Shown here: positions 7,750 through 20,885 of the stretch, in pieces | Position numbering within the stretch: position 1 is the first letter of the stretch | How the letters are laid out: the number at the start of each line of letters is the position of its first letter | Virus record (IMG/VR): IMGVR_UViG_3300047359_000059 | Span: 1 to 20,885 of that record | Strand: one strand, 5' to 3' | DNA from: a virus | Length of the DNA: 20,885 nt | Notes under the pieces: generated by a model | The model's database searches: none | Told to the model about the DNA's origin: nothing | The model's input: only the letters and a program-made list of their open reading frames with translations | Translations under genes and position numbers: made by a program

Positions 7750-8298
7750 ATGGCTTTTATGGCGGCGATAGGAACAGCGGCAGGCAGTATGACAGCGGCG
7801 CAAGGCATCGGGATGGTTGCGTCAGCGGCCAGTTCAATGTCGCAGATGCAGGCCGCTCGCTCGCAAGCCAGAGGGCTTGCGGCGCAAGCGACTATGGCGC
7901 GGTTACAGGCTAAGACTGAAAGCCTAAAATATAAACAGCAGGGGCTGTCTATATTAGACAACATACTGCAAACACAAGCCGCTATTAATGCAAGGGCTGG
8001 CGCTGGTGGCATTGACCCCAACAGCGGTAGCGCGAGAGCCTTAGCCCAATACGCATTAAGTCGTGGCGCACAAGAAACATACACTATTATGGATAATCAA
8101 GTTATTGCAGAGCGCGGCGGTGAGATGCAGGCACAGCAATATATGCAACAGGCTAGAGGCATTATGAGGGCTGGCATGATCGGCGCTATAGCCAAGGGCG
8201 CTACAACAGCTTACCAGTTTGATTTAATTGGTGGGCCAACAGCGCTTGAGCCAGAGATTGGTGGGCTTGGATCAATGAGGGGCTACTTTAGTCAATAG
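7750..8298 (+). CDS. internal virion protein, T7 gp14-like (small ejection protein)
   Basis: A 182-residue protein, near the 196 aa of T7 gp14. An Ala/Gly/Met-rich hydrophobic N-terminus (residues about 3-30, possibly membrane-inserting) is followed by a long Gln/Ala/Arg helix (SMSQMQAARSQARGLAAQA...), then LDNILQTQAAINARAGAGGIDPNSGSARALAQYAL. The INARAxAxGIxPxSGSxRxLA type motif is characteristic of gp14-type proteins. In T7 this protein leaves the particle first and helps form the channel in the outer membrane. The gene begins one base after the tail tubular B stop. Confidence 0.85.
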   Translation: MAFMAAIGTAAGSMTAAQGIGMVASAASSMSQMQAARSQARGLAAQATMARLQAKTESLKYKQQGLSILDNILQTQAAINARAGAGGIDPNSGSARALAQYALSRGAQETYTIMDNQVIAERGGEMQAQQYMQQARGIMRAGMIGAIAKGATTAYQFDLIGGPTALEPEIGGLGSMRGYFSQ

Positions 8299-8300
8299 AT

Positions 8301-10100
8301 ATGGCAGAATTACCACGTTACAGACCATTAGGGGCGGCAATAAGTAGTATGCCATCAGTTAATTTTATTCAAACTGGTGCGGCTCAAGCTCAGGTATACG
8401 ACAGCATCAGCAGTGCTTTGGATCAGGTGTCTGAGTTTGCGTTTGAGAAGGCAACGGCTCAGGCGCAACGTGAAGGCGCTTTGTATGGCTACAATAATCC
8501 ATTGACTAATGAGCAAATAAACCAAGCCCTAAAAGGCGGCTTAGACATTAATGATGTTATTGACGAGCCGGATACTATCTTTGGCGCGGCATCAAGGGCT
8601 GGGACAGCGGCGCGATTGCGTACAGACCTAGAAGCACAGATGCGTACTCAGCTTGCTGGCTTTAACGCCTATATAGATGGTGGCGCTGATCTTTCGCCGC
8701 AAGTGCTTAGTCAGATGGAAGCGCAGATACAAGGCAACATAACAGGTTACTCTGAGCTACTGGCGCAACTTGATGTGGATGAAGCGGCATCATTTTCTGC
8801 GACCGCAAACACACTTGCATCAGCCACATACAAGAACGGCTTAGAAACAGTGCTAAAGCGCGAACAAGCTGTGCGCCGCATCACTGCTGACAAAGCCCTT
8901 GATGAACTACCTAACCAGCTATACGCAATGATAAAGGCATCATCTGGTGGGTTTATTGATGATGAAAAAGGAAATCAAACATCAGAGTTGGAAGCGGCAC
9001 TGTCTGTCGAAGCTAATAGTGTTCAAACCCAAATTATCGGAACTAATGACATTGACTTTATCAACAGCAAGTCCACTGCCGTTGAAAGCGCTATTATAGA
9101 GGCCAAGCAGAACGTGTTGACTGATTTTGCATTTACAGAGGACTTTGCGGAAAACCCGGCAGACTTTAGCATCAAGTTGCGGTCTGGTGATTTTGGAAGG
9201 TACTCTGAGGTTTACAATTCACTCGACCCAAAACAACAGGCTGATGTGCGGCAAAGAATTAGAGCAGAACGCACAGCGCGTGAAAACGCAGACAAATCGC
9301 AACAAACAAAAAACAATAATCTGTATAAGTCAGAAGCGGCAAGTTTGTTAGTCACAATTTCAAAATCCGAGCTAGGCTCTAAAGAAGAGGCTGATGCTAT
9401 AGATGCGTATCGTTCTTTGTTTGCCACGTCTAATGGCAACATTATGCCATTAAGCACTATAGACGGTTTATTGTCTGCCAAGACTAAAAGGTATGAAAAG
9501 CCCACGCCTGCTAGCGCAAAGCTAGCGGTAAGGCAAAAGATATATGAGGGAATTATTACAGATATCACAGAATTAAAGAAAATTGGAGAAGTTGATTTTG
9601 GGTTGACTTCAAACGATGTGATAGAAATGTTGCCTTTGTTGAACACTGAAACTAAGGCGCAAGAAACGGCTGTTCACAAACAATTAATGAGATTAGCAAA
9701 GATTGTTCCGGGAACAGTGCCTAGCGAAGAAAAGTCAACTCAATACTTTAAGCTAAGGTCTAAAGCAGAGGATGAGCTGGCCTTGCAGATGCAAGAATGG
9801 GAAGCCAGTGGCGGCATAGGCAAAAAGCCAACAATGATGGATGTTCTCACTGGTGACTTTGAAACAACTACTGTCAACTCAATAGCCGATCAAAGAATTG
9901 ATGGCATATTGTCTACCTTGAATAGCTATTATGGCCAAGATGGACAGACCCTTGTGACAGGCATCGTGTTTGACGAAGATACAGATTTTGCAAAAATAGA
10001 AGGCGTTCTTAAAAAGTTGGGAATTAGCAAAGCTAATTTACAAGAAATAAAAGAAGGCTTAATTCAAGTTGAAAAAGAAATAGCGAAGCGGATAGACTAA
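8301..10100 (+). CDS. internal virion protein, T7 gp15-like position (599 aa)
   Basis: A 599-residue, mostly helical, acidic protein with no cysteine or catalytic motif noticed. The N-terminus MAELPRYRPLGAAISSMPSVNFIQTGAAQAQVYDSISSALDQVSEFAFEKATAQAQREGALYG resembles that of ejection proteins in marine podophages (a short PRY peptide, then a Gln/Ala helix). Most of the remainder looks alpha-helical. T7 gp15 is 747 aa. The location directly after a gp14-like gene and before two large virion proteins supports a role in the ejection conduit. The gene starts 2 bases after the previous stop, and its stop overlaps the next ATG (TAATG). Family assignment rests on context plus overall character, not on a decisive motif. 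Confidence 0.72.
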   Translation: MAELPRYRPLGAAISSMPSVNFIQTGAAQAQVYDSISSALDQVSEFAFEKATAQAQREGALYGYNNPLTNEQINQALKGGLDINDVIDEPDTIFGAASRAGTAARLRTDLEAQMRTQLAGFNAYIDGGADLSPQVLSQMEAQIQGNITGYSELLAQLDVDEAASFSATANTLASATYKNGLETVLKREQAVRRITADKALDELPNQLYAMIKASSGGFIDDEKGNQTSELEAALSVEANSVQTQIIGTNDIDFINSKSTAVESAIIEAKQNVLTDFAFTEDFAENPADFSIKLRSGDFGRYSEVYNSLDPKQQADVRQRIRAERTARENADKSQQTKNNNLYKSEAASLLVTISKSELGSKEEADAIDAYRSLFATSNGNIMPLSTIDGLLSAKTKRYEKPTPASAKLAVRQKIYEGIITDITELKKIGEVDFGLTSNDVIEMLPLLNTETKAQETAVHKQLMRLAKIVPGTVPSEEKSTQYFKLRSKAEDELALQMQEWEASGGIGKKPTMMDVLTGDFETTTVNSIADQRIDGILSTLNSYYGQDGQTLVTGIVFDEDTDFAKIEGVLKKLGISKANLQEIKEGLIQVEKEIAKRID

Positions 10101-12613
10101 TGGATGATTTTGAAGAATTATTTAATATTCTAGAAGACTCTGGCATGATGCCAGATGTGTCTGTTTCTAAGCGCGATGTCTATGTGCCTGCTTATGGTCA
10201 TCCCCCACAAGAACAGGGGCTTGATTATGCACAGGCTCAACAGGAAACTGAGATGCAAACGCGGCACGGTGTCCAGCTTACAAAAGATATGTTGCCGTAT
10301 GATCAAAATTTTGTGAATGCGGCTCGCAATGTTTATAAGCATTTTGAAGGAAAGCCCAAAACCATTGACACATTTGCGCCGTCACAAATGCAACAGGCCA
10401 TAGAACGATCCGACAAAGAGATGGTGGACTATGCCGTTGACTTGATGGGTGAGTTTTATTTTAACTTTGCCGGAACGCCTGTCACCGGGTCAGAGGGCAT
10501 GTTGTATCAAGCCGCATCAATTATTGGGGCTGGCGACGCAAAGAAGGCGCAAGACTTTTTATATGTTATGGATCAGTATGAGCGGTTGCCTCAATTTGGT
10601 GAGGGCGCGTTTTCCCGAATGTTTAAAGGGATACTGCAAGACCCAGCAAACTGGGCGGCGGCGGCAACGCTGGGCGGCAGTAAGTTAGTTACTGCTGGCA
10701 CTCAGCAAGCCACAAAGATTGGTGTTAGAAGCCAGCTTAGACAGCTTGCGGCGCGTAGCATTACAGATGCGGCAACAGAGCTGGCAGAAAAACCTGCAAT
10801 GTATGCCGGGCTGGGTGAGGCAACACGCGGCGCAATGGAAGAACGCGCATTAATCGGGACAGAACGCACGGCCGGTTATGAAGTGTCAGGTCTAGAAGAG
10901 GATTTGCGCGTTGGGCTAACCTCAGTGATTAGCGGCTTGATGGGCGCTGGGATGGTCAAAGGTGGCGAAGCATTGGCAGGCAATGTTGATGCCCCAGAAG
11001 TGCAAGAGTTAATAAGCCGCACGGCTAGCGACATTGTGGCCGGTGCTGAACGCCGGACATTAGAACGTGAGGGCAGTGTGCAGTTAGGTGCTGGCATTGA
11101 TCCAACTATGCTGGCAGACCGTGCAATTCTTGCGGCCAAAAACTTTTTTGGCGGCGATGACCCAGCAACGCCTACAACATTAATGCCGCCATCAGACGAG
11201 CCAAAGGTTGTTGGCCTTGATCCAGAATACAGGGTGACAGTTGCTGGCTTTGAGCCAGATAAAAAGGCATCAGTTCCAATTAAATTAACGCCTGCTAATT
11301 CTGAGGCAACTGTTGAAAAAATGAATAACATAGAACAACAGTATCCTGACCCACTATCATCGCCGGATAATTACGCCCAAATGGTGGCTAGAACAAAGAA
11401 TGCTGATGAAGTATCAGCGCCGCCAACTTGGCTTATTGAACATTCAAACGATACTGGAAAATGGGCAGGCTGGTTTAATAACCTAACGCCAGAACAAATT
11501 GAAGGGGCAAGAGAAGGGCTAGCTGTACAAGACGATTTCCGCAAGGCATATACGGCTGGGTCTAATGAGAGCTTGACAGGTCAACTAATGCTGTGGGCTA
11601 TTTTATCTCGCCGCATGTCAGCATATCCTCATGAAGCTGGTTACTTAGAATTGGCTGAGGCCGCTCAACCGTTTATTATGAAAGCGGCTCGCGGCGAATG
11701 GACAGAAGAGGATTCGGTTGCGTGGAAAGAAATGTCTATGTCTATTATGCCAGAAGACGCTGGTTCGCCGGGAAGGTCAGCCACATCTAATGCAAACGCA
11801 TTTGGCGAAACGTGGCTACGCAAAATGGCGGCAACAGACGAAAATGGTGTATCTGGGTTGACACGCTTACACAACATGATTGCTGATCCTAATATGTCTA
11901 GTAAGGATATCAGGCGTGAATACTACACGTTGGCTGATGCCACCGGCATTGGTAATAAGGTTCTGTCATTTGCTTTGTTAGTGTCAGGTCGTAATGATGT
12001 TGTTGTGCTTGACCGCATCCAAATCAATACTATGTGGGGTGGCGGCGACAAGATATATGACGACATTATGATGCAGTTTGAGGGCGCTCAGGGTCTGGTT
12101 CAATATGAGGCGCTTGAGCGATCATTAATGCCGCGTGTGGGCGATCTATATGACGCTGTAGGCAGGCCCGATGATGCGTCAGTAGGACGTTACCATTGGG
12201 AAAGCTGGGTGTTGTCATCTGGGCAAATTGTGTCACACCCAACACTAGAAGCTGTTGTAGGTATGGGGACAAAGCGCCCCGGCGCGAACCTGTCACCAAC
12301 AGACCTTATGCCAATAACCGAAGGGCGTTTTCACGCAAAACATTCTGGCGTTTCGTTTGAGAAATTACCGGGCGGCGGCAACAGGTTTGTTTACAATACC
12401 AGTGGCAACGAGCCTTATCAATTTACTAGAAAGCAACTTGATGCTATGTTTAAGGATGTGTTTAGTAAAAAGTCTGGCGTGTTGCCATCAGACTTTCCGG
12501 GAGTAAAAGCATTTGAGGGAGGCAACATCCCTTGGTATGAGTATGAAGGAGTAGATCGTGGAAAATTCGATGCAATCATCAAGAAATATGGAAAGCCAAA
12601 AGAAACCCTCTAA
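10100..12613 (+). CDS. large ejection-type virion protein with an apparent HhH-GPD DNA glycosylase core (837 aa)
   Basis: The N-terminal 160 residues look like virion-associated helices. Residues about 165-320 are Ala/Gly-rich, with hydrophobic GLTSVISGLMGAGMVKGG as seen in large phage ejection proteins. Residues 320-450 are a Pro-rich linker region. Residues about 490-646 look like a helix-hairpin-helix glycosylase: LMLWAILSRRMS resembles the family's early helix, then LADATGIGNK (611-620), a hydrophobic helix, and VVVLDR (634-639). The Lys620-to-Asp638 distance of 18 equals that of Lys120/Asp138 in E. coli endonuclease III, and the stretch after it (IQINTMW) fits the following helix. No cysteine is seen, so no iron-sulfur loop. 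The C-terminal 100 residues are unrecognised. Placement within the ejection module suggests delivery into the cell with the DNA; glycosylase activity is an inference. Confidence 0.8.
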   Translation: MDDFEELFNILEDSGMMPDVSVSKRDVYVPAYGHPPQEQGLDYAQAQQETEMQTRHGVQLTKDMLPYDQNFVNAARNVYKHFEGKPKTIDTFAPSQMQQAIERSDKEMVDYAVDLMGEFYFNFAGTPVTGSEGMLYQAASIIGAGDAKKAQDFLYVMDQYERLPQFGEGAFSRMFKGILQDPANWAAAATLGGSKLVTAGTQQATKIGVRSQLRQLAARSITDAATELAEKPAMYAGLGEATRGAMEERALIGTERTAGYEVSGLEEDLRVGLTSVISGLMGAGMVKGGEALAGNVDAPEVQELISRTASDIVAGAERRTLEREGSVQLGAGIDPTMLADRAILAAKNFFGGDDPATPTTLMPPSDEPKVVGLDPEYRVTVAGFEPDKKASVPIKLTPANSEATVEKMNNIEQQYPDPLSSPDNYAQMVARTKNADEVSAPPTWLIEHSNDTGKWAGWFNNLTPEQIEGAREGLAVQDDFRKAYTAGSNESLTGQLMLWAILSRRMSAYPHEAGYLELAEAAQPFIMKAARGEWTEEDSVAWKEMSMSIMPEDAGSPGRSATSNANAFGETWLRKMAATDENGVSGLTRLHNMIADPNMSSKDIRREYYTLADATGIGNKVLSFALLVSGRNDVVVLDRIQINTMWGGGDKIYDDIMMQFEGAQGLVQYEALERSLMPRVGDLYDAVGRPDDASVGRYHWESWVLSSGQIVSHPTLEAVVGMGTKRPGANLSPTDLMPITEGRFHAKHSGVSFEKLPGGGNRFVYNTSGNEPYQFTRKQLDAMFKDVFSKKSGVLPSDFPGVKAFEGGNIPWYEYEGVDRGKFDAIIKKYGKPKETL

Positions 12614-12617
12614 TAGT

Positions 12618-12731
12618 ATGGATTTGATCAAGCGCCTTTATAAGATGCGCGAGATGATGCCTATGCAAGCCGAGCCTGATGAGCCGGATCAACCTATGGA
12701 AAATGAAAATGGCACGACCACCAAAGATTGA
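12618..12731 (+). CDS. possible 37-aa small protein between the two large ejection genes
   Basis: ATG 12618 opens a 37-codon frame to TGA 12729-12731. The N-terminus DLIKRLYKMREMMPM would make an amphipathic helix; the rest is acidic and Pro-rich (EPDEPDQPMENEN). It starts 4 bases after the upstream stop and overlaps the start region of the next large gene in another frame. There is no clear ribosome binding site, and it is too short for strong coding evidence. If it is real, the next gene most likely starts at ATG 12709. It may be a small virion peptide or simply leader sequence. Confidence 0.35.
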   Translation: MDLIKRLYKMREMMPMQAEPDEPDQPMENENGTTTKD

Positions 12732-15700
12732 ACAACAGGTAACTGAAATGACATCAGGCGCAACTAACATTGCGCCGGGTGTTGATGCGCCGCAATCAGG
12801 CATTGAAGAAGCTGGTTACATTAGTCGTTACGTTACGCGCCCAACGGTAGGAAAGTTGATTGAGCCGTTGACTAAGCCGGGCGCAAAGATAGACCCAGAA
12901 TATAAAGTAAAGCCGCCTGAGCCAGAAAAGGTTGTAGAGCCGCCGGTTGAGGAAGCACCATCGCCCGAAGCTGAAGTTCAGCCTATGGAAGATGTGCCGC
13001 CTGATGAAGCGGTAACGCCTGAGCCACCAAAAGAACCAAAGACAAAAGTGCCTGAGCCTGTCAGCGAAGAGTATATGGAAGAGCGTATGGCGGCGCGTGA
13101 AGAGTATATGGGTGGCCCTAGAACTGCACCATCAGGCAAGGGCGAGGGTGTTATAGAAGGGCCGGTCAACACTAAGTTTTACGACAGCGACACACTTGCG
13201 GCCACTGTGCAAGCTATGGGGGATGTTGAGCCTGACTATAAGTCGCGCACTGTGCAGAGCTTTTTTGATCGCGCCATTATGACCGGCGTGCCTAAAAGAA
13301 TGCTTGACCAGTTATTCAAAGGCATCCCAATGGAATCAAAGGTTGGCGATCACAAGCTGGCAGAAAACATTGCAGGTCTACAGATACTGCATGACATCAG
13401 CGCAACACGCGTGGATGAGTTAATGGCTAAGGCGCTTGATGGTGAACTCGATGAAATGGGTAAGCTAGAACTGCGTGAAGCAATGGCGCAACATGAAATT
13501 ATTTTGTCTGAGCTAAAAGGCGTCAAGCGCGATGTGGCGAGGTCAATGAACGTCTTTAAGAACACATATGAAAAAGGCACGCCATCTGCCCTTGACATTA
13601 GATCAGCGCTTGAAAGCCAAGGTGGTGATGAGCAATTAATGCTGTTGGCTCATAAATATATGGCCTTCAAAAAAGACGACCCGAACTACAGAAGCAAACG
13701 AAATGGATTGCTTGAGCGTGGCGTGATTGGCAAGTCATATGATTCAATTATGTACGGCGCTCAAGCTATGGCGCTATCAGCCCCCGGCACAATTTTGTAC
13801 AATGTTGGGGCTGGCATTAGTTCTATCTTTATGGATGTGCCTGAGCGTCTGTTTGCAATTCCTGCAACAATACCGCGCCGTATATTGGAAGTAATATTAA
13901 GGCAAGAAACAGACCCAGACCGGTATACTCTTGACGACATATTGGCTAGAGCCAGCGGCATGAGAAACGGCATTCTTGATGGTATCATGTTGGCAGGGCG
14001 TTATATCTCAGAAGGCAAGACATCGGTTAAAGGCGAAGTCATACAAAGCCCACTGACCCCAGAGTATTGGTCAAATACGCCATTAATCATTGCAGGCAGG
14101 GAAATAGGACGACTGCCGGACAATTTAGAAGATAAGCCAGCCGCATACATTATTAGGGCATTAGGGTTTTTGCCAAACCTTGCAATGAAATCTATTGGCG
14201 TAACCGATGAGCTTGTTGGTGGGTTAGCACAGCGTATGGAGTTGCATGAGCAAGGCGCTCGGCTAGCCAGAAGAACATATGATGACGCAATACTGGCTGG
14301 GGAAGACCGAGAAAAAGCGCTTGCAATGGCTCAAGTTGAGGCTGACAAGCTGTTAACAGAACGCCCACACGACATTGAGGCAAGCACTGAAAGCTGGCGC
14401 AAACAAGTTACCTTGCAGTCAGACATTAAAAAAGTTGGCGCAATGGGCAATGCTATGTGGTGGTCTAACCGTATAATGAAAATGCCGCCAATCAAGCCAT
14501 TAGTTTTATTTAGTAAGTCGTTACTAAATCTAGCCAGCGAAGGTGCGGCTAGAACGCCTTTTCTTAATTTTGTGTCGCCACGTTTCTATAGTGAGTTTGC
14601 AAAGGGCGGCAGGCATCGTGACCTTGCGTTGGGTCGAGTTGCTTACGGCTACGCAATGTTTGAAGGCGGCAGGGCGCTTTATGAGAATGGGTTTACTACT
14701 GGGCCAGGGCCAAGTGACACAGAAGAAAAAAACACTTGGCGGTCTATGGGGTGGCAACCCTTTTCATTTATAGTTGATCTTGAGGATTGGGGCGGCGAAA
14801 GTGGTGTATATGTTGAACGGCTCAAAAACATACCCGGCTTTGAAAACGCTGTATCATTTGGTTCTGGCCAGTTTGAAGGCAAGATGTTTATATCTTTCTC
14901 GCGTCTTGAACCAGCCAACTTGCCATTTGTGTTTGGGTCAGCGTGGGCTGAAACATCAGCATATCATGAGTTTGACCCAACTGATGAAGAAGGCTCTGTT
15001 TTTATTGACGCTAGCCTTGCGACACTATCTGAGTTTTCAACAGTCGTGCCTCAGATGACGGTTATTAATGAGCTTGTTTCTATATTTGGTCAAAGGCAAG
15101 CCGACAAAGGCGAGAAGGCTACTGCTGTTATAACTAAAATAATGGAACAGTATGCAAATATTGCTATTATGGGTACGCCTGTGGTTGGTTATACTAATAG
15201 CTCAATGGCTAATTACATTGAAGGCATACTAAACCCAGATGTTCAGCCAACAGCAATGACAATGGCTCAAAAAGAATGGGCTGAAAACAACTTCTTAATT
15301 GGCGAGTACATTCCTGCCCCGGCTGTAAGGGCTGGATTTGAAGCCTTAAACAGATGGCGCAATAAAATACCGGCGTTCAACAAAGACGCGCCTGCAAAGC
15401 TAGATGCGTGGGGCGATCCAATATCTAAGCCCGGATCACTTATCACGATGATACCTACTAGAGTGACATTTGCAAAGCCAGACAGGACAAAAGAACTTGT
15501 GGCGGCATTGAGGCACGGCATCAGAGAGCCTAACTATAATATTCACGGCGTGTATCTGCCACAAGAAGTTCAAGAGAGATACAAGCAGTTATACGCTAAG
15601 GACATCAAGATTAACGGCGAAACAATGAGCGATGCCATCTATAACAACGTCACGCAAATGATTGATGACGGCAACCTTACAGGCATTGTGCCTAAGCTGG

Positions 15701-15918
15701 GCGACTTGCAGGCTGAGATTGACAGCACAGTAAATGCTTACAAGGCGGCGGCCAGAGAAAGAATGTTTGGAAAGACTAAGAATTATGGCAAGGAACTGGT
15801 CTATACAATGCAGGGCGTTGGCGTTAATTATGGCCTTACAAGTGATAAGGTTGAATACCCTGATCTAGCCTTAGAAATCCAAAAGGCACATAGGGATGCA
15901 AGGCTAGTAGGCCGTTAA
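12709..15918 (+). CDS. very large internal virion/ejection protein (T7 gp16 position, about 1069 aa)
   Basis: The frame is open from ATG 12679, but the start MARPPKIEQQVTEM at ATG 12709 is preferred because the first ten codons overlap the 37-aa ORF and look non-coding; no start has a strong ribosome site. Counting from ATG 12679, residues 75-150 are a Pro/Glu-rich disordered linker (VKPPEPEKVVEPPVEE...). Residues 355-400 form a hydrophobic stretch (MALSAPGTILYNVGAGISSI) that could meet a membrane. The remainder is a mix of helices ending with WRNKIPAFNKDAPAKLDAWGD and AKPDR, a C-terminal type seen in large marine phage virion proteins. T7 gp16 is 1318 aa and has an N-terminal transglycosylase; I see no such motif here. 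Likely role: translocation of DNA across the envelope. Confidence 0.82.
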   Translation: MARPPKIEQQVTEMTSGATNIAPGVDAPQSGIEEAGYISRYVTRPTVGKLIEPLTKPGAKIDPEYKVKPPEPEKVVEPPVEEAPSPEAEVQPMEDVPPDEAVTPEPPKEPKTKVPEPVSEEYMEERMAAREEYMGGPRTAPSGKGEGVIEGPVNTKFYDSDTLAATVQAMGDVEPDYKSRTVQSFFDRAIMTGVPKRMLDQLFKGIPMESKVGDHKLAENIAGLQILHDISATRVDELMAKALDGELDEMGKLELREAMAQHEIILSELKGVKRDVARSMNVFKNTYEKGTPSALDIRSALESQGGDEQLMLLAHKYMAFKKDDPNYRSKRNGLLERGVIGKSYDSIMYGAQAMALSAPGTILYNVGAGISSIFMDVPERLFAIPATIPRRILEVILRQETDPDRYTLDDILARASGMRNGILDGIMLAGRYISEGKTSVKGEVIQSPLTPEYWSNTPLIIAGREIGRLPDNLEDKPAAYIIRALGFLPNLAMKSIGVTDELVGGLAQRMELHEQGARLARRTYDDAILAGEDREKALAMAQVEADKLLTERPHDIEASTESWRKQVTLQSDIKKVGAMGNAMWWSNRIMKMPPIKPLVLFSKSLLNLASEGAARTPFLNFVSPRFYSEFAKGGRHRDLALGRVAYGYAMFEGGRALYENGFTTGPGPSDTEEKNTWRSMGWQPFSFIVDLEDWGGESGVYVERLKNIPGFENAVSFGSGQFEGKMFISFSRLEPANLPFVFGSAWAETSAYHEFDPTDEEGSVFIDASLATLSEFSTVVPQMTVINELVSIFGQRQADKGEKATAVITKIMEQYANIAIMGTPVVGYTNSSMANYIEGILNPDVQPTAMTMAQKEWAENNFLIGEYIPAPAVRAGFEALNRWRNKIPAFNKDAPAKLDAWGDPISKPGSLITMIPTRVTFAKPDRTKELVAALRHGIREPNYNIHGVYLPQEVQERYKQLYAKDIKINGETMSDAIYNNVTQMIDDGNLTGIVPKLGDLQAEIDSTVNAYKAAARERMFGKTKNYGKELVYTMQGVGVNYGLTSDKVEYPDLALEIQKAHRDARLVGR

Positions 15919-15952: not shown

Positions 15953-17533
15953 ATGGCAGATTACAATATTAATGCAGTGACGCGCCGTGTCGTGTTTACA
16001 GGTTCAGCCGGGCTAGGGCCGTACAGCTTCACGTTTGAGGTTTTGGATCAGAACGATCTGGCAGTATACTTCAACGCAACTAAGCTGACGCTGACGACTG
16101 ATTACACTGTCACCGTCAACGCCAATGGCACTGGGTCTGTTACTATAGTGACTGGCACAAACGTGCCATCAACGCCTACCGCCTCAGATCAGATTGTTGT
16201 TGTAGGCGCAAGGGATATTGAGCGCACCACCGACTTTGTGACGGCTGGTGATTTACGCGCCTCAGCTTTAAACGAACAGCTAGACGGCCAGATCATTATG
16301 ATCCAGCAGATTGCTGAAGAAAATAAGCGCGGAATGAGAGCGCCTGTTTATGACCCAGCGCTAGTTGAAGATGGCGGTGTTGTTGATATGGAACTGCCGA
16401 CCAAGGCATCACGCGCTGGCAAGACACTTGCGTTTGACAGTAACGGTAACCCAGTGGTCGGTGAGGATATCGGTAACTGGCGTGGAGATTGGGCGGCATC
16501 AACGGCCTATGGCGTTAGGGATATTGTCAAGGATGCTAGTAACTACAATGTCTATCGCTGTAATACTGCACACACCTCTAGCGGATCAACCCCAATTAGC
16601 TCTAACACAGACAGCGCCAAATGGGATTTGGTAGTTGATGCTGAGTACGCCGCGACCCAGGCCGCTAATGCGGCGGCCTCTGCCTCAGCGGCGGCAACTT
16701 CAGAAGCTAATAGCGCGACTTCTGCATCAGCCTCTGCATCATCCGCCACATCTGCGGCATCATCAGCCTCATCTGCATCAACAGCGCAAACTGCGGCAGA
16801 AGCGGCACAAGCGGCGGCAGAACTTGCGGCAGATAATTTTGACGACACCTACCTTGGCGCAAAGTCTAGCAACCCGACTGTAGACAATGACGGCGATGCT
16901 CTGACGGCTGGTGACTTGTACTTCAACACAACCAGCAATGAATTAAAAGTCTACAACGGTTCAGCTTGGCAGACTGCGGCAGTATCTACGGTTGGCTTGC
17001 TCACATCTGCTAATAACCTGTCTGACTTAGGTGATGCGGCTACGGCTATTGCAAACCTCGGCATTAGCGCAACTGCGGCAGAGTTAAATGTTCTTGATGG
17101 CATCACTGCAAGCACGGCTGAATTGAACTATACTGATGGAGTTACTAGCGCAATACAGACACAGCTAGACGCAAGGCTGGCATTAACTGGCGGTACACTG
17201 ACTGGTGCGGCTATCGGCTCAACTGACACTGACACCACAAACACTGGTAATGTCACACTAGACTTTAGCACTAACCAGAACTTTGTGTTAACGCTGACAG
17301 GCAATGTTACCTTAGACAACCCAACAACGGAAACAGTAGGTCAGTCTGGATTCATCACATTCATACAGGATGCAACTGGCGGCAGAACAGTTAGCCTTGG
17401 TACTGATTACGAAACGGCTGGTGCGGCTGGTCTTACTCTTTCAAGCGCGGCAAGCACAACAGACATTGTGCCATATGTGGTTGTTGCTTCGGGCAGAATC
17501 TTACTGGGTGCGCCACAACTGGCGTTTGCATAA
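15953..17533 (+). CDS. tail fibre protein with T7 gp17-type N-terminus, CBM-like module and coiled coil (526 aa)
   Basis: Similar in length to T7 gp17 (553 aa). Residues 1-120 look like the nozzle-binding gp17 N-terminal domain (RRVVFTGSAGLGPYSFTFEVL, then DIERTTDF...LNEQLDGQIIMIQQI). Residues 174-230 resemble a small chitin-binding-type (CBM5/12-like) fold: W at 176, 179 and 224, STAYGVRDIVKD, YRCNTAHTS. Residues 231-296 are an Ala/Ser-rich coiled coil, probably trimeric. Next come a GDLYFNTTSNELKVYNGSAW collar element (about 320-345) and two AELN(V/Y)xDGxT repeats (376-402). The C-terminal part (about 405-526) is beta-rich and would be the tip or a connector to the next adhesin. AGAGAGG (15940-15946) is the ribosome site; spacing is 6. 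Confidence 0.9.
   Translation: MADYNINAVTRRVVFTGSAGLGPYSFTFEVLDQNDLAVYFNATKLTLTTDYTVTVNANGTGSVTIVTGTNVPSTPTASDQIVVVGARDIERTTDFVTAGDLRASALNEQLDGQIIMIQQIAEENKRGMRAPVYDPALVEDGGVVDMELPTKASRAGKTLAFDSNGNPVVGEDIGNWRGDWAASTAYGVRDIVKDASNYNVYRCNTAHTSSGSTPISSNTDSAKWDLVVDAEYAATQAANAAASASAAATSEANSATSASASASSATSAASSASSASTAQTAAEAAQAAAELAADNFDDTYLGAKSSNPTVDNDGDALTAGDLYFNTTSNELKVYNGSAWQTAAVSTVGLLTSANNLSDLGDAATAIANLGISATAAELNVLDGITASTAELNYTDGVTSAIQTQLDARLALTGGTLTGAAIGSTDTDTTNTGNVTLDFSTNQNFVLTLTGNVTLDNPTTETVGQSGFITFIQDATGGRTVSLGTDYETAGAAGLTLSSAASTTDIVPYVVVASGRILLGAPQLAFA
16643..16840 (+). repeat. Ala/Ser-rich low-complexity coding tract in the tail fibre
   Basis: About 200 bases of imperfect GCN/TCN codon repetition encode residues 231-296 (mostly Ala and Ser with Thr, Glu and Gln). 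It forms a coiled-coil stalk between the CBM-like module and the distal part. Such tracts in phage fibres are prone to slippage and recombination, so variation between related phages is expected here. Confidence 0.75.
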
Positions 17534-20500
17534 TGAGCATTACAGGTTCAGAACAATGGATGTATTCCGCTGGTGCGGAGTTCTACGACTTTCCCATCGA
17601 ACAGTCCCTGCGCTTCAATGACAACGACAGCGCATATCTAAACTGGACACCAGCATCTGCTGGCAATCGTAAAACTTGGACTTGGAGTGGCTGGGTCAAG
17701 CGTGGAAACTTGGGAACAACACAACAACTCTTTCAAGCTAAGAGTGGTAGTGATTATGTACAAATAGGATTTACAACAGCTAATAAACTACAATTTCAAT
17801 TAGGAAGTCCAAGAAGAAGAACTAATAGATTATTCAGAGATGTAGGGGCTTGGTATAATATAGTTGCAGTTCTTGACACTACAAACGCAACTGGTGATGA
17901 CAGGATTCAACTGTGGGTGAACGGAGAAAGACTAACATCTTTTGATGAAGACACTGACCCATCTCAAAATGCCTCTTTTCAAGTGAACAACACAGTTGCA
18001 CACAATATTGGTAGAGGCGATAACACACATTACTTTGACGGCTATATGGCTGACGTTAACTTCATTGACGGTCAAGCCCTAGACGCTACCAGCTTCGGTG
18101 AAACTAAGTCAGGCATATGGATTCCCAAAGACACGGCTGACCTGACCTTCGGCACGAATGGTTTCCGGTTGCAGTTTGGCGACACGACAGAGGCTAGTGG
18201 GTTTAATGCTGTTACATATACTGGAAATCAAACAAACGGTCACGCCATAAGTGGAGTAGGTTTTTCCTCTGCGCCTGACCTTGTTTGGATTAAAGAACGG
18301 AGTTCTACATCATCGCATCTTCTTGTTGATTCTGTTCGTGGCGCATCAAAAGGACTGGCCTCAAACGCTACATCGGCTGAAGAAAATCTTTCATCTGGAG
18401 AGTTTTCTTCTTTTGATAGCGATGGATTTACTGTTGATAATAACAATAGGTCAAATCAATCAGGCCAAACATATGTCGCTTGGGCGTGGGACGCTGGCTC
18501 TGGTTCTGCCGCAAGCAATACTGATGGGTCAATCACCAGCACGGTCAAGGCTAATACTGACTACGGTTTTTCGATTGTGTCCTATACTGGGTCTGGCACA
18601 AATGGCGACACAGTCGGTCACGGTTTGGGCGTTGCTCCAGATATGTATATTGTTAAAAGCAGAGATAACGCGAGAGATTGGCGAGTATATCATTCGTCAC
18701 TGGGTGCAACAAAAGCTATACAATTAAACAAAACTGATGCGGCCAATACATCATCTGCCTTCTGGAACAATACCGAACCGACATCATCTGTATTTACAAT
18801 AGGTTCTGTGACTACCGTAAATGGGAGCGGTGAAGACTACATAGCGTATTGTTTCGCTGAAAAGACTGGCTACTCAAAGTTTGGTACATACACTGGAACT
18901 GGGGCGGCTGGAAATAGCATCACAGGGCTAGGATTTGCCCCAGCCTTCGTTATGATTAAACGCAGTGATAGTGGTTCTGAATGGGCAATGTATGACAACA
19001 CCCGCCAGACTAGCAACCCAAAGTATCAAATTCGTGCAAATGCTAGTGACGCTGAAAACAGTAATTCCGCTGTTTACGTTGATTTGGATTCTGATGGGTT
19101 TACTATTCAAACAACAGATGCGGCACAGAACGCATCAGGCGGCACATACATCTATATGGCGTTTGCAGAAACAAGGGATGCGGCCTTCTGGCGCGACACG
19201 TCCGGTGAGGGCAATGACTGGCAACCGAACAACCTAGTGTTCAGTGACGTTGTGCCGGACAGTGCGACTAATAACTTTGCGGTTGTTCCTTCTACTACTT
19301 TACCAAGCACAGGCTATTCACAACATACTGAAGGTAATCTTCAACTGTATCAACCATCGTGGGGTGGCTGGGACATTAACCTTGCCAACTTTAACTTACC
19401 TTCTTCTGGGAAATATTATTGGGAAGTAATGCCAGTACAAGGAATTTTTAACGCTGGGTATGGGGCTTTTGTTTTTGGTATTGGTAATATTAGAGGCAGA
19501 GAAAATATCTCTGGTTTTCCTACCTTTGGAAATCCTTTAATCCAAGTAGACAGTAGAGGAATAGGCGAATACAGACAGTACCCAAGTTGGGTTAACTATA
19601 CAACAAGTGGGAGTTTTGGATTTACTGTTGGCAGTACAGTCTATGGAATTGCTGTTGATTGTGATAACAAAAAGTTTTGGTTTTCTCTTAATAACTCTTG
19701 GGCAGGAACTAGCGGAACTACATTAACTGCTGGAACTGGCGACCCTGCAAATGGCACAAATGGCGACCCTATTTCTGGAGACATGACGGATTACGTTCCT
19801 TTCTTTAACTTAGGCGACCAACAATCATCTTGTCGTCTTGGTATAAACTTCGGTCAGGACAGCACCTTCGCTGGTGCAAGAGCCGCTGGCGGCAACGCTG
19901 ACGAGAACGGCTATGGTGACTTTGCCTATGCACCACCGTCTGGCTTTTTGTCACTCTGTTCAGCCAATCTTCCAACAGGTGCTATCGACACGCTGGCTGA
20001 TGAAACGCCAGAGGATTATTTTAATACTGTGCTTTATAGTGCTACCGCAGGGGTTGCTGGCTCTGTCACAGGCTATGGGTTCGCACCCGATTGGCTTTGG
20101 ACTAAAGCACGGAACGCAACACAAAGTCACCAGCTTTTTGACAATGTTCGTGGTGATGGTGTACGGCTTATTACAAACTCCACAGCCGCAGAATTAGCGG
20201 CAGGTGCTAGTTATGTGTCGCTCGAAGACGATGGCTTTGATTATGGCTCGACAACATTTTCATCTAACAACTTTGTTGGTTGGGGCTGGAAAGCAAACGG
20301 TGCTGGCGTAAGCAACACAGATGGCAGTATCACCAGCACAGTTAGCGTGGGTGCTACTAGCCAGCAAAACTGGTTTAGTATTGTAGGTTATCAGGGCAAT
20401 GGCACGGCTGGTGCTACTGTTGGACACGGCTTGGGCGTTACACCTGACTGGGTTGTGGTGAAGGATAGGGATAACGGCTCTACACAGTGGGTGCATAATC

Positions 20501-20885
20501 CATTTGGTGCATTTGGCTCTAACCAGTATATTTACTTTGACACTCAGGGAATTACTGCTGATTCAAATATATTTTGGAATGGCAACCCTAACAGCACAAC
20601 AATAGGATTAGATGACCACCCAGAAACAAATGGGAGCGGCACTAATTACATAGCCTACTGTTTCGCAAACGCTGAAAATCTGTGTAAGGCTGGGTCATAT
20701 GTGGGCAATGGTTCGACAGATGGTACGTTTATTCACACAGGTTTCCGCCCTGCCTATATTATGATTAAACGCACTGATGGTACAGGTAACTGGGTAATTG
20801 AGGATATAGCACGTTCACCTTCTAATGTTGCGGATGACCGCCTGTACGCTGACAGCGCAAATGCGGAAGACGCTAATTCAGCTAA
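17533..20885 (+). CDS. giant modular adhesin / receptor-binding protein (LamG, beta-repeats, SPRY), 3' end outside window
   Basis: ATG 17533 shares one base with the fibre stop codon (TAATG). I read the frame codon by codon: it stays open for 1117 codons to the window edge. Residues 25-200 resemble a LamG/concanavalin-like sandwich (WTWSGWVKRG, WYNIVAVLDTT, IQLWVNGE, YFDGYMADVNFIDG). Residues 225-546 hold three repeats of about 95 residues with Gly-rich turns and an APDxxxxK core. Residues about 580-800 look like a SPRY domain (GKYYWEV, YGIAVDCDNKKFWFSLNN, PFFNLGD...INFGQ). From 833 the three repeats recur. The repeat character fits tail-associated repeat families such as DUF7483, as I recall them. 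Expected role: host-surface glycan or protein recognition, assembled with the upstream fibre. Confidence 0.9.
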   Translation, partial: MSITGSEQWMYSAGAEFYDFPIEQSLRFNDNDSAYLNWTPASAGNRKTWTWSGWVKRGNLGTTQQLFQAKSGSDYVQIGFTTANKLQFQLGSPRRRTNRLFRDVGAWYNIVAVLDTTNATGDDRIQLWVNGERLTSFDEDTDPSQNASFQVNNTVAHNIGRGDNTHYFDGYMADVNFIDGQALDATSFGETKSGIWIPKDTADLTFGTNGFRLQFGDTTEASGFNAVTYTGNQTNGHAISGVGFSSAPDLVWIKERSSTSSHLLVDSVRGASKGLASNATSAEENLSSGEFSSFDSDGFTVDNNNRSNQSGQTYVAWAWDAGSGSAASNTDGSITSTVKANTDYGFSIVSYTGSGTNGDTVGHGLGVAPDMYIVKSRDNARDWRVYHSSLGATKAIQLNKTDAANTSSAFWNNTEPTSSVFTIGSVTTVNGSGEDYIAYCFAEKTGYSKFGTYTGTGAAGNSITGLGFAPAFVMIKRSDSGSEWAMYDNTRQTSNPKYQIRANASDAENSNSAVYVDLDSDGFTIQTTDAAQNASGGTYIYMAFAETRDAAFWRDTSGEGNDWQPNNLVFSDVVPDSATNNFAVVPSTTLPSTGYSQHTEGNLQLYQPSWGGWDINLANFNLPSSGKYYWEVMPVQGIFNAGYGAFVFGIGNIRGRENISGFPTFGNPLIQVDSRGIGEYRQYPSWVNYTTSGSFGFTVGSTVYGIAVDCDNKKFWFSLNNSWAGTSGTTLTAGTGDPANGTNGDPISGDMTDYVPFFNLGDQQSSCRLGINFGQDSTFAGARAAGGNADENGYGDFAYAPPSGFLSLCSANLPTGAIDTLADETPEDYFNTVLYSATAGVAGSVTGYGFAPDWLWTKARNATQSHQLFDNVRGDGVRLITNSTAAELAAGASYVSLEDDGFDYGSTTFSSNNFVGWGWKANGAGVSNTDGSITSTVSVGATSQQNWFSIVGYQGNGTAGATVGHGLGVTPDWVVVKDRDNGSTQWVHNPFGAFGSNQYIYFDTQGITADSNIFWNGNPNSTTIGLDDHPETNGSGTNYIAYCFANAENLCKAGSYVGNGSTDGTFIHTGFRPAYIMIKRTDGTGNWVIEDIARSPSNVADDRLYADSANAEDANSA
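18205..19170 (+). repeat. first block of three tandem protein repeats (R1-R3) in the adhesin
   Basis: R1 at residues 227-322, R2 at 347-444, R3 at 453-546 of the adhesin starting at 17533. Each unit reads Y(T/S)G..., then a Gly-hairpin with G(V/L)GF-AP (GLGVAPD in R2), then an (I/V)K core, a variable segment, and ends with a hydrophobic strand (YVAWAW, YIAYCF or YIYMAF). They are diverged at the DNA level, so this is an old amplification rather than a recent copy. Confidence 0.8.
20029..20885 (+). repeat. second block of the same three repeats (R4-R6), R6 cut by the window edge
   Basis: R4 at residues 833-921, R5 at 951-1046, R6 from 1055 to the window end. Pairwise, R4 resembles R1 (NVRGDG...NSTAAE with SVRGAS...NATSAE), R5 resembles R2 (both preceded by NTDGSITSTV, both with TVGHGLGV and an NGSG-YIAYCFA ending), and R6 resembles R3 (FxPAxxMIKR, with DAxxSNSA/EDANSA). 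The order is therefore preserved as a block. Confidence 0.8.

Follow-up and report, generated by a model that had tools for sequence, protein, structure and literature searches.

A gene that lies in a phage ejection module and appears to encode a DNA glycosylase raises the question of whether a base-excising enzyme could enter the cell together with the phage genome, and on which DNA it would act. The gene is an 837-aa open reading frame on the + strand of a 20,885-base IMG/VR virus record, which over its full length is referred to here as the window. An earlier note on this DNA had described an HhH-GPD layout at residues 490-646 (positions 11567-12037) with Lys620 and Asp638 as catalytic residues. 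In the translated reading frame the motifs and both residues stand where they were claimed, 18 residues apart (codons 11957-11959 and 12011-12013), and the GxGxK-17-D pattern occurs only once across the six frames of the whole 20,885-nt window. The domain is present, but the interval assigned to it covers only the middle of a fold that extends from about residue 447 to 713. The protein divides as follows.

10100-12613, + strand: 837-aa open reading frame, an N-terminal ejection-protein scaffold followed by a C-terminal OGG2-like glycosylase module (from the translation and the position in the ejection module).
10100-11191, + strand: residues 1-364, N-terminal scaffold and linker, about 30% identical to the nearest syntenic relatives, L001 and L002.
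11192-12610, + strand: residues 365-837, the complete conserved module (~473 aa), which travels between phages (AlphaFold2 pLDDT 92.3, pTM 0.91).
11438-12238, + strand: residues 447-713, OGG2-like HhH-GPD glycosylase fold (207 of 208 residues aligned with 3n0u).
11585-11620, + strand: residues 496-507, LMLWAILSRRMS, conserved N-terminal helix of the glycosylase fold (homologue alignment).
11945-12016, + strand: residues 616-639, GIGNK...VVVLDR, HhH hairpin and GPD segment, with Lys620 and Asp638.
12185-12238, + strand: residues 696-713, GRYHWESWVLSSGQIVSH, near-invariant block where OGG2 has its C-terminal helix and C-terminal lysine.
12239-12610, + strand: residues 714-837, conserved extension for which three beta strands are predicted and which cellular OGG2 lacks.

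The structure prediction called for in the earlier note returned a two-domain HhH-GPD fold. AlphaFold2 modelled residues 441-739 from a 51-sequence alignment (pLDDT 90.5, pTM 0.91), and the four top VIA-align matches to this model, over 202-207 residues, were all OGG2 entries: Thermotoga Tm1821 3n0u (Z 17.4, 207 residues, 3.1 Å), MjOgg 3knt (17.0), SsOgg 3fhg (16.5) and MjOgg 3fhf (16.4). Human OGG1 came next at Z 11.2, followed by many other HhH-GPD enzymes, with EndoIII at 9.1; Foldseek alone gave E 2e-3 at probability 1.00. For a model of the 473-aa module (residues 365-837) OGG2 was again first (Z 15.4-14.3), and structures outside the HhH-GPD fold scored Z 3.6 or less. The predicted two-domain helical fold around an HhH motif supports placing the domain in the HhH-GPD superfamily, with D638 as the catalytic Asp after the HhH and K620 as the Lys of bifunctional members.

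Within that superfamily the predicted module resembles the OGG2 enzymes, archaeal-type 8-oxoguanine glycosylases, along almost their entire length (205 of 206 residues with 3knt): the fold is compact, the HhH carries a Lys and an Asp 18 residues apart, and both the FeS cluster and the A-domain are absent. It differs from OGG2 in its low identity (about 14-18%), its long conserved flanks and its location inside ejection or polyvalent proteins. OGG1, EndoIII, MutY, MagIII and AGOG share the superfamily fold, and the bifunctional ones the Lys/Asp pair, but they score Z 11.2 and below; moreover, EndoIII and MutY have FeS cysteines and OGG1 an A-domain, whereas the phage module has neither. The absence of cysteine noted earlier holds for all 837 residues, and the assignment to a cluster-free OGG type was correct and can be narrowed to OGG2-like, without the N-terminal A-domain of the OGG1/AlkA type. 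As a separate observation, cysteine is nearly absent from the family as a whole (81 of 83 homologous domains have none), possibly in connection with unfolding and passage through the tail.

At the level of sequence the same register was recovered. A PDB profile search found MjOgg at E 0.16, aligning K620 with the catalytic lysine (a Q in 3knt) and D638 with the MjOgg Asp, and hhalign matched a profile of cellular OGG2 locally (P 0.014-0.022) over exactly the K620/D638 segment; a low-confidence hhalign path also paired the LMLWAILSRRMS helix with the FSELCFCILTANS helix of cellular OGG2. The case is carried by the structural evidence, the sequence evidence being in register yet weak. These weak scores, and a window protein without any Pfam match, count in favour of an all-helical ejection protein in which the GxGxK-D spacing had arisen by chance. 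Such an accident is extremely improbable: it is strongly disfavoured by the Z scores of 16.4-17.4, by a ranking in which the four OGG2 entries lead and their only near neighbours are HhH-GPD enzymes, and by the invariance of the catalytic pair.

This invariance was assessed in 83 distinct homologues (pairwise identity median 46%, minimum 33%), as the earlier note had proposed, and K620 and D638 are kept in 83 of 83. Other invariant positions include G616, N619, S623, F624, L627, G630, D633, R639 and Q641, and a second block, H699-W700-E701, W703-V704, S707, Q709 and H713, is intact in 82 of 82 sequences, one being gapped there. Both synonymous codons are used at the catalytic positions (Lys620 AAG 50, AAA 33; Asp638 GAC 46, GAT 37), and third codon positions of nine relatives agree with the window at only 28-45%, so that silent sites are near saturation. 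The invariance of Lys and Asp therefore reflects selection, and the GxGxK-D arrangement is not a chance pattern. Neither of the two outcomes that the earlier note had named as contradicting its reading, a model lacking the fold or a freely varying Lys and Asp, was seen. Together, fold and residues suggest that the domain may work as a bifunctional HhH-GPD glycosylase does.

The base-recognition end of the domain differs from that of OGG2. According to a review, OGG2 tells 8-oxoG from G through a C-terminal lysine that is strictly conserved and whose free carboxylate reads N7-H, and removal of the enzyme's C-terminus abolishes 8-oxoG cleavage while AP-lyase activity is retained (PMC3397491). 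Among 77 cellular OGG2 proteins gathered, 74 end in this Lys, typically as LDLYLWYxxTGKVLK. The structural alignment stops at model residue 349, which is His713, opposite OGG2 residue 207, the end of the cellular OGG2 chain; here, the phage chain runs 124 residues beyond the invariant His713 and no C-terminal Lys carboxylate is available. Two further OGG2 residues that contact the base, Asp194 and Trp198, lie in the C-terminal helix (PMC3397491). The last helix of the phage domain is GRYHWESWV, and an ungapped register places Asp194 on His699 and Trp198 on Trp703, whereas the low-confidence hhalign path places them on Gly696 and Trp700; the register differs between the two, with the Trp retained in both and Asp194 in neither. 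The OGG2 8-oxoG sensor is absent from the phage module, and we do not claim it as OGG2 proper; 8-oxoG specificity should therefore not be assumed.

These differences bear on two readings of the module. The first is that it rids the incoming phage DNA of 8-oxoguanine or another oxidised purine, a virion-borne start of base excision repair that host enzymes would finish. The nearest fold is the 8-oxoG-specific OGG2 group and the catalytic pair is intact, but the lysine carboxylate that separates 8-oxoG from G in OGG2 (PMC3397491) is missing and Asp194 is kept in neither plausible register; we consider this role possible, though short of probable. The second reading holds that the fold is kept without catalysis, as a structural piece of the channel for DNA or as an anchor for the end of the genome. 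It is in keeping with an ejection machine, with the HhH as a DNA-binding element and with a pocket unlike that of OGG2, but we judge it rather unlikely: pure binding would not need both Lys620 and Asp638, which are invariant in 83 sequences within very different host proteins, and the syntenic relative L002 has no module at all.

Relatives of the module were numerous among uncultivated viruses. An IMG/VR query with residues 441-739 found 115 relatives (identity 41-77% among the 80 matches listed), an alignment-based query found at least 353, and queries with divergent members gave further ones. Single-sequence searches of Pfam, PHROGs and the PDB returned nothing useful, and none of 60 module members had a PHROG match. 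No Pfam or NCBIfam model matched convincingly, the best members reaching E 0.12 for Ogg-HhH and 0.17 for PRK01229, under the cut-offs; the NCBIfam search gave chance-level matches and one weak match to an N-glycosylase/DNA lyase. A tblastn search of the isolate phage collection with three module members gave no match, and a scan of prokaryote genomes found no relative, although it used two short patterns that could miss divergent copies. In BFVD, two uncultured Caudovirales proteins named uncharacterized are clear homologues, and later matches are weak. Searches of the open-access literature for an earlier account of a glycosylase within ejection or polyvalent proteins yielded none.

The genes surrounding the reading frame are those of an ejection module.

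7750-8298, + strand: T7 gp14-like internal virion protein gene (Pfam T7_gp14 E 3e-4, below the curated cut-off; phrog_418 E 3e-7).
8301-10100, + strand: gene in the gp15 position, whose homologues hold this place upstream of module genes.
12679-15918, + strand: internal virion protein gene in the gp16 position, the downstream neighbour in many module loci (phrog_6651 E 5e-11).

The glycosylase gene thus lies between gp15-like and gp16-like genes of a T7-like ejection module. Among 96 distinct module-bearing loci, 40 have reading frames above 1,200 aa; for the 55 mid-size ones, gp15-like and gp16-like neighbours are both present in 25 and one of them in 20, and because some contigs are cut the absence of a neighbour is uninformative. 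Residues 63-247 of the window protein are 32% identical to the N-terminus of gp47 from Pseudomonas phage LUZ100, whose annotation cites similarity to T7 gp16 (internal virion protein D), and in LUZ100 this segment is part of a 1,210-aa gp16-like protein. The likeness to T7 gp16 extends from position to N-terminal sequence, but here the equivalent is split over two reading frames and the glycosylase module ends the first. Gene order and domain architecture suggest that the protein is packaged in the virion and delivered. Further downstream in the window lie a tail fibre-like protein (15953-17533), with a sub-threshold match to the carbohydrate-binding CBM_5_12 (residues 180-217, E 0.0012), and an open-ended reading frame (17533-20883) with Pfam DUF7483 (E 5e-194) and Laminin_G_3, close to the virion structural protein phrog_19943.

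Iyer et al (2017, PMC5512222) surveyed the polyvalent proteins of phages and conjugative elements, which combine many domains in one large chain and are predicted to be injected together with DNA. The module is also found in reading frames of 1,200-3,200 aa with this kind of architecture, many of which carry the polyvalent-protein domain LPD38; LPD38 lies near the C-terminal end in 7 of 7 scanned frames above 2,000 aa and was not found in three shorter scanned frames above 1,200 aa, some of them cut. LPD38 and ART-PolyVal occur together with the glycosylase module or in its place, whereas no Pfam LPD model convincingly covers the module itself, and the word "glycosylase" is absent from the main text of the polyvalent-protein survey (PMC5512222). 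A match to LPD24 (E 0.079, one member only) was judged to be chance. Two of the giant reading frames are described here in their own right: a 3,015-aa frame (L054:1303-10347) combines an ART-PolyVal-like stretch (E 1e-4, below the curated cut-off), a weak methyltransferase match, the glycosylase module and LPD38, and another (L059:1972-10518) has a weak match to the zincin-type Peptidase_M90 (residues 1054-1174, E 0.003), which fits the metallopeptidases of other polyvalent proteins.

The place of the module was compared with that in the syntenic relatives. L001 and L002 share flanking genes with the window (gp16-like, 39%; tail protein, about 70%). In L002 the scaffold reading frame ends at about 290 aa, with the gp16-like gene directly after and no glycosylase module, while in L001 (6001-7947) similarity continues through the linker to about window residue 370 and is followed by an ART-PolyVal-like domain (Pfam E 9e-6, below the curated cut-off). 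From these few examples we infer that a gp16-type N-terminal domain has an exchangeable slot at its end; scanning with the L002 scaffold recovered its own contig and nothing else, so that the idea is based on L001, L002, LUZ100 and the window. The location in an ejection module proposed earlier is backed by this synteny, by the LPD38-bearing polyvalent relatives and by the ART-like domain in the same slot of a syntenic relative.

The slot brings in a further reading, namely that the module belongs to a set of interchangeable effectors which are injected at entry, and attacks host DNA or defence-modified DNA. The ART-PolyVal-like domain of L001, the giant frames with LPD38, one of them also with an ART-PolyVal match, and the altered base pocket are consistent with it. 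Against this, glycosylase attack on phage DNA is documented as a host defence and not as a phage weapon (PMC11078745), and the slot argument is built on few loci; attack is possible rather than probable. Repair and attack on host or modified DNA stand about level, the fold family favouring the first, and the slot shared with ART and the altered pocket the second. Slightly less likely again is the idea of a new HhH-GPD subfamily that, having lost the 8-oxoG sensor of OGG2, would be injected as the genome enters and would excise a modified base, in counter-defence or host attack.

Taken together, the module is probably an active OGG2-like HhH-GPD glycosylase, and probably an AP lyase too; it would be the exchangeable cargo of a T7 gp16-type ejection protein and would enter with the phage genome. 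Its fold comes from prediction and the conservation of its catalytic pair from alignment, and the conserved residues in turn point to activity. Against it stand the weak sequence-level support described above, the absent OGG2 base sensor, which would also be compatible with a glycosylase that only binds DNA or has an unusual substrate, and an ejection argument drawn from context, with very few examples of the slot. According to this model, the module would enter the cell with the phage genome as cargo of the ejection protein and act before phage gene expression. Its hairpin would grip DNA, a base would be flipped out, Asp638 and Lys620 would break the glycosidic bond, and the backbone might be broken as well through a Schiff base. 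The substrate would probably be a damaged or modified purine, located either in the incoming phage DNA, which would mean repair, or in the DNA of the host, which would mean attack.

Were the module delivered in active form, excision of bases would begin as the genome enters, ahead of the reading of any phage gene. A DNA glycosylase would then join the domains known in injected polyvalent proteins, and several hundred phage loci would constitute a testable family. Should the subfamily reading be true, DNA glycosylases would form a class of phage-injected effectors. Related phages that share one scaffold but carry on it the module, a replacement or nothing constitute a natural experiment on what ejected cargo does.

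T4 endonuclease V, the pyrimidine dimer glycosylase of phages, is likewise a phage-encoded glycosylase with AP-lyase activity. Its fold, however, is unrelated to the HhH-GPD module, and it is made after infection and is not known as part of an ejection protein. A pyrimidine dimer glycosylase has also been reported in marine roseophages (PMC11288001). Finally, two weaker structural matches in BFVD, A0A6J7WE55 and G8EYE9 of Synechococcus phage S-CBP42, may be further phage HhH-type glycosylases; G8EYE9 is a stand-alone protein of 198 aa.
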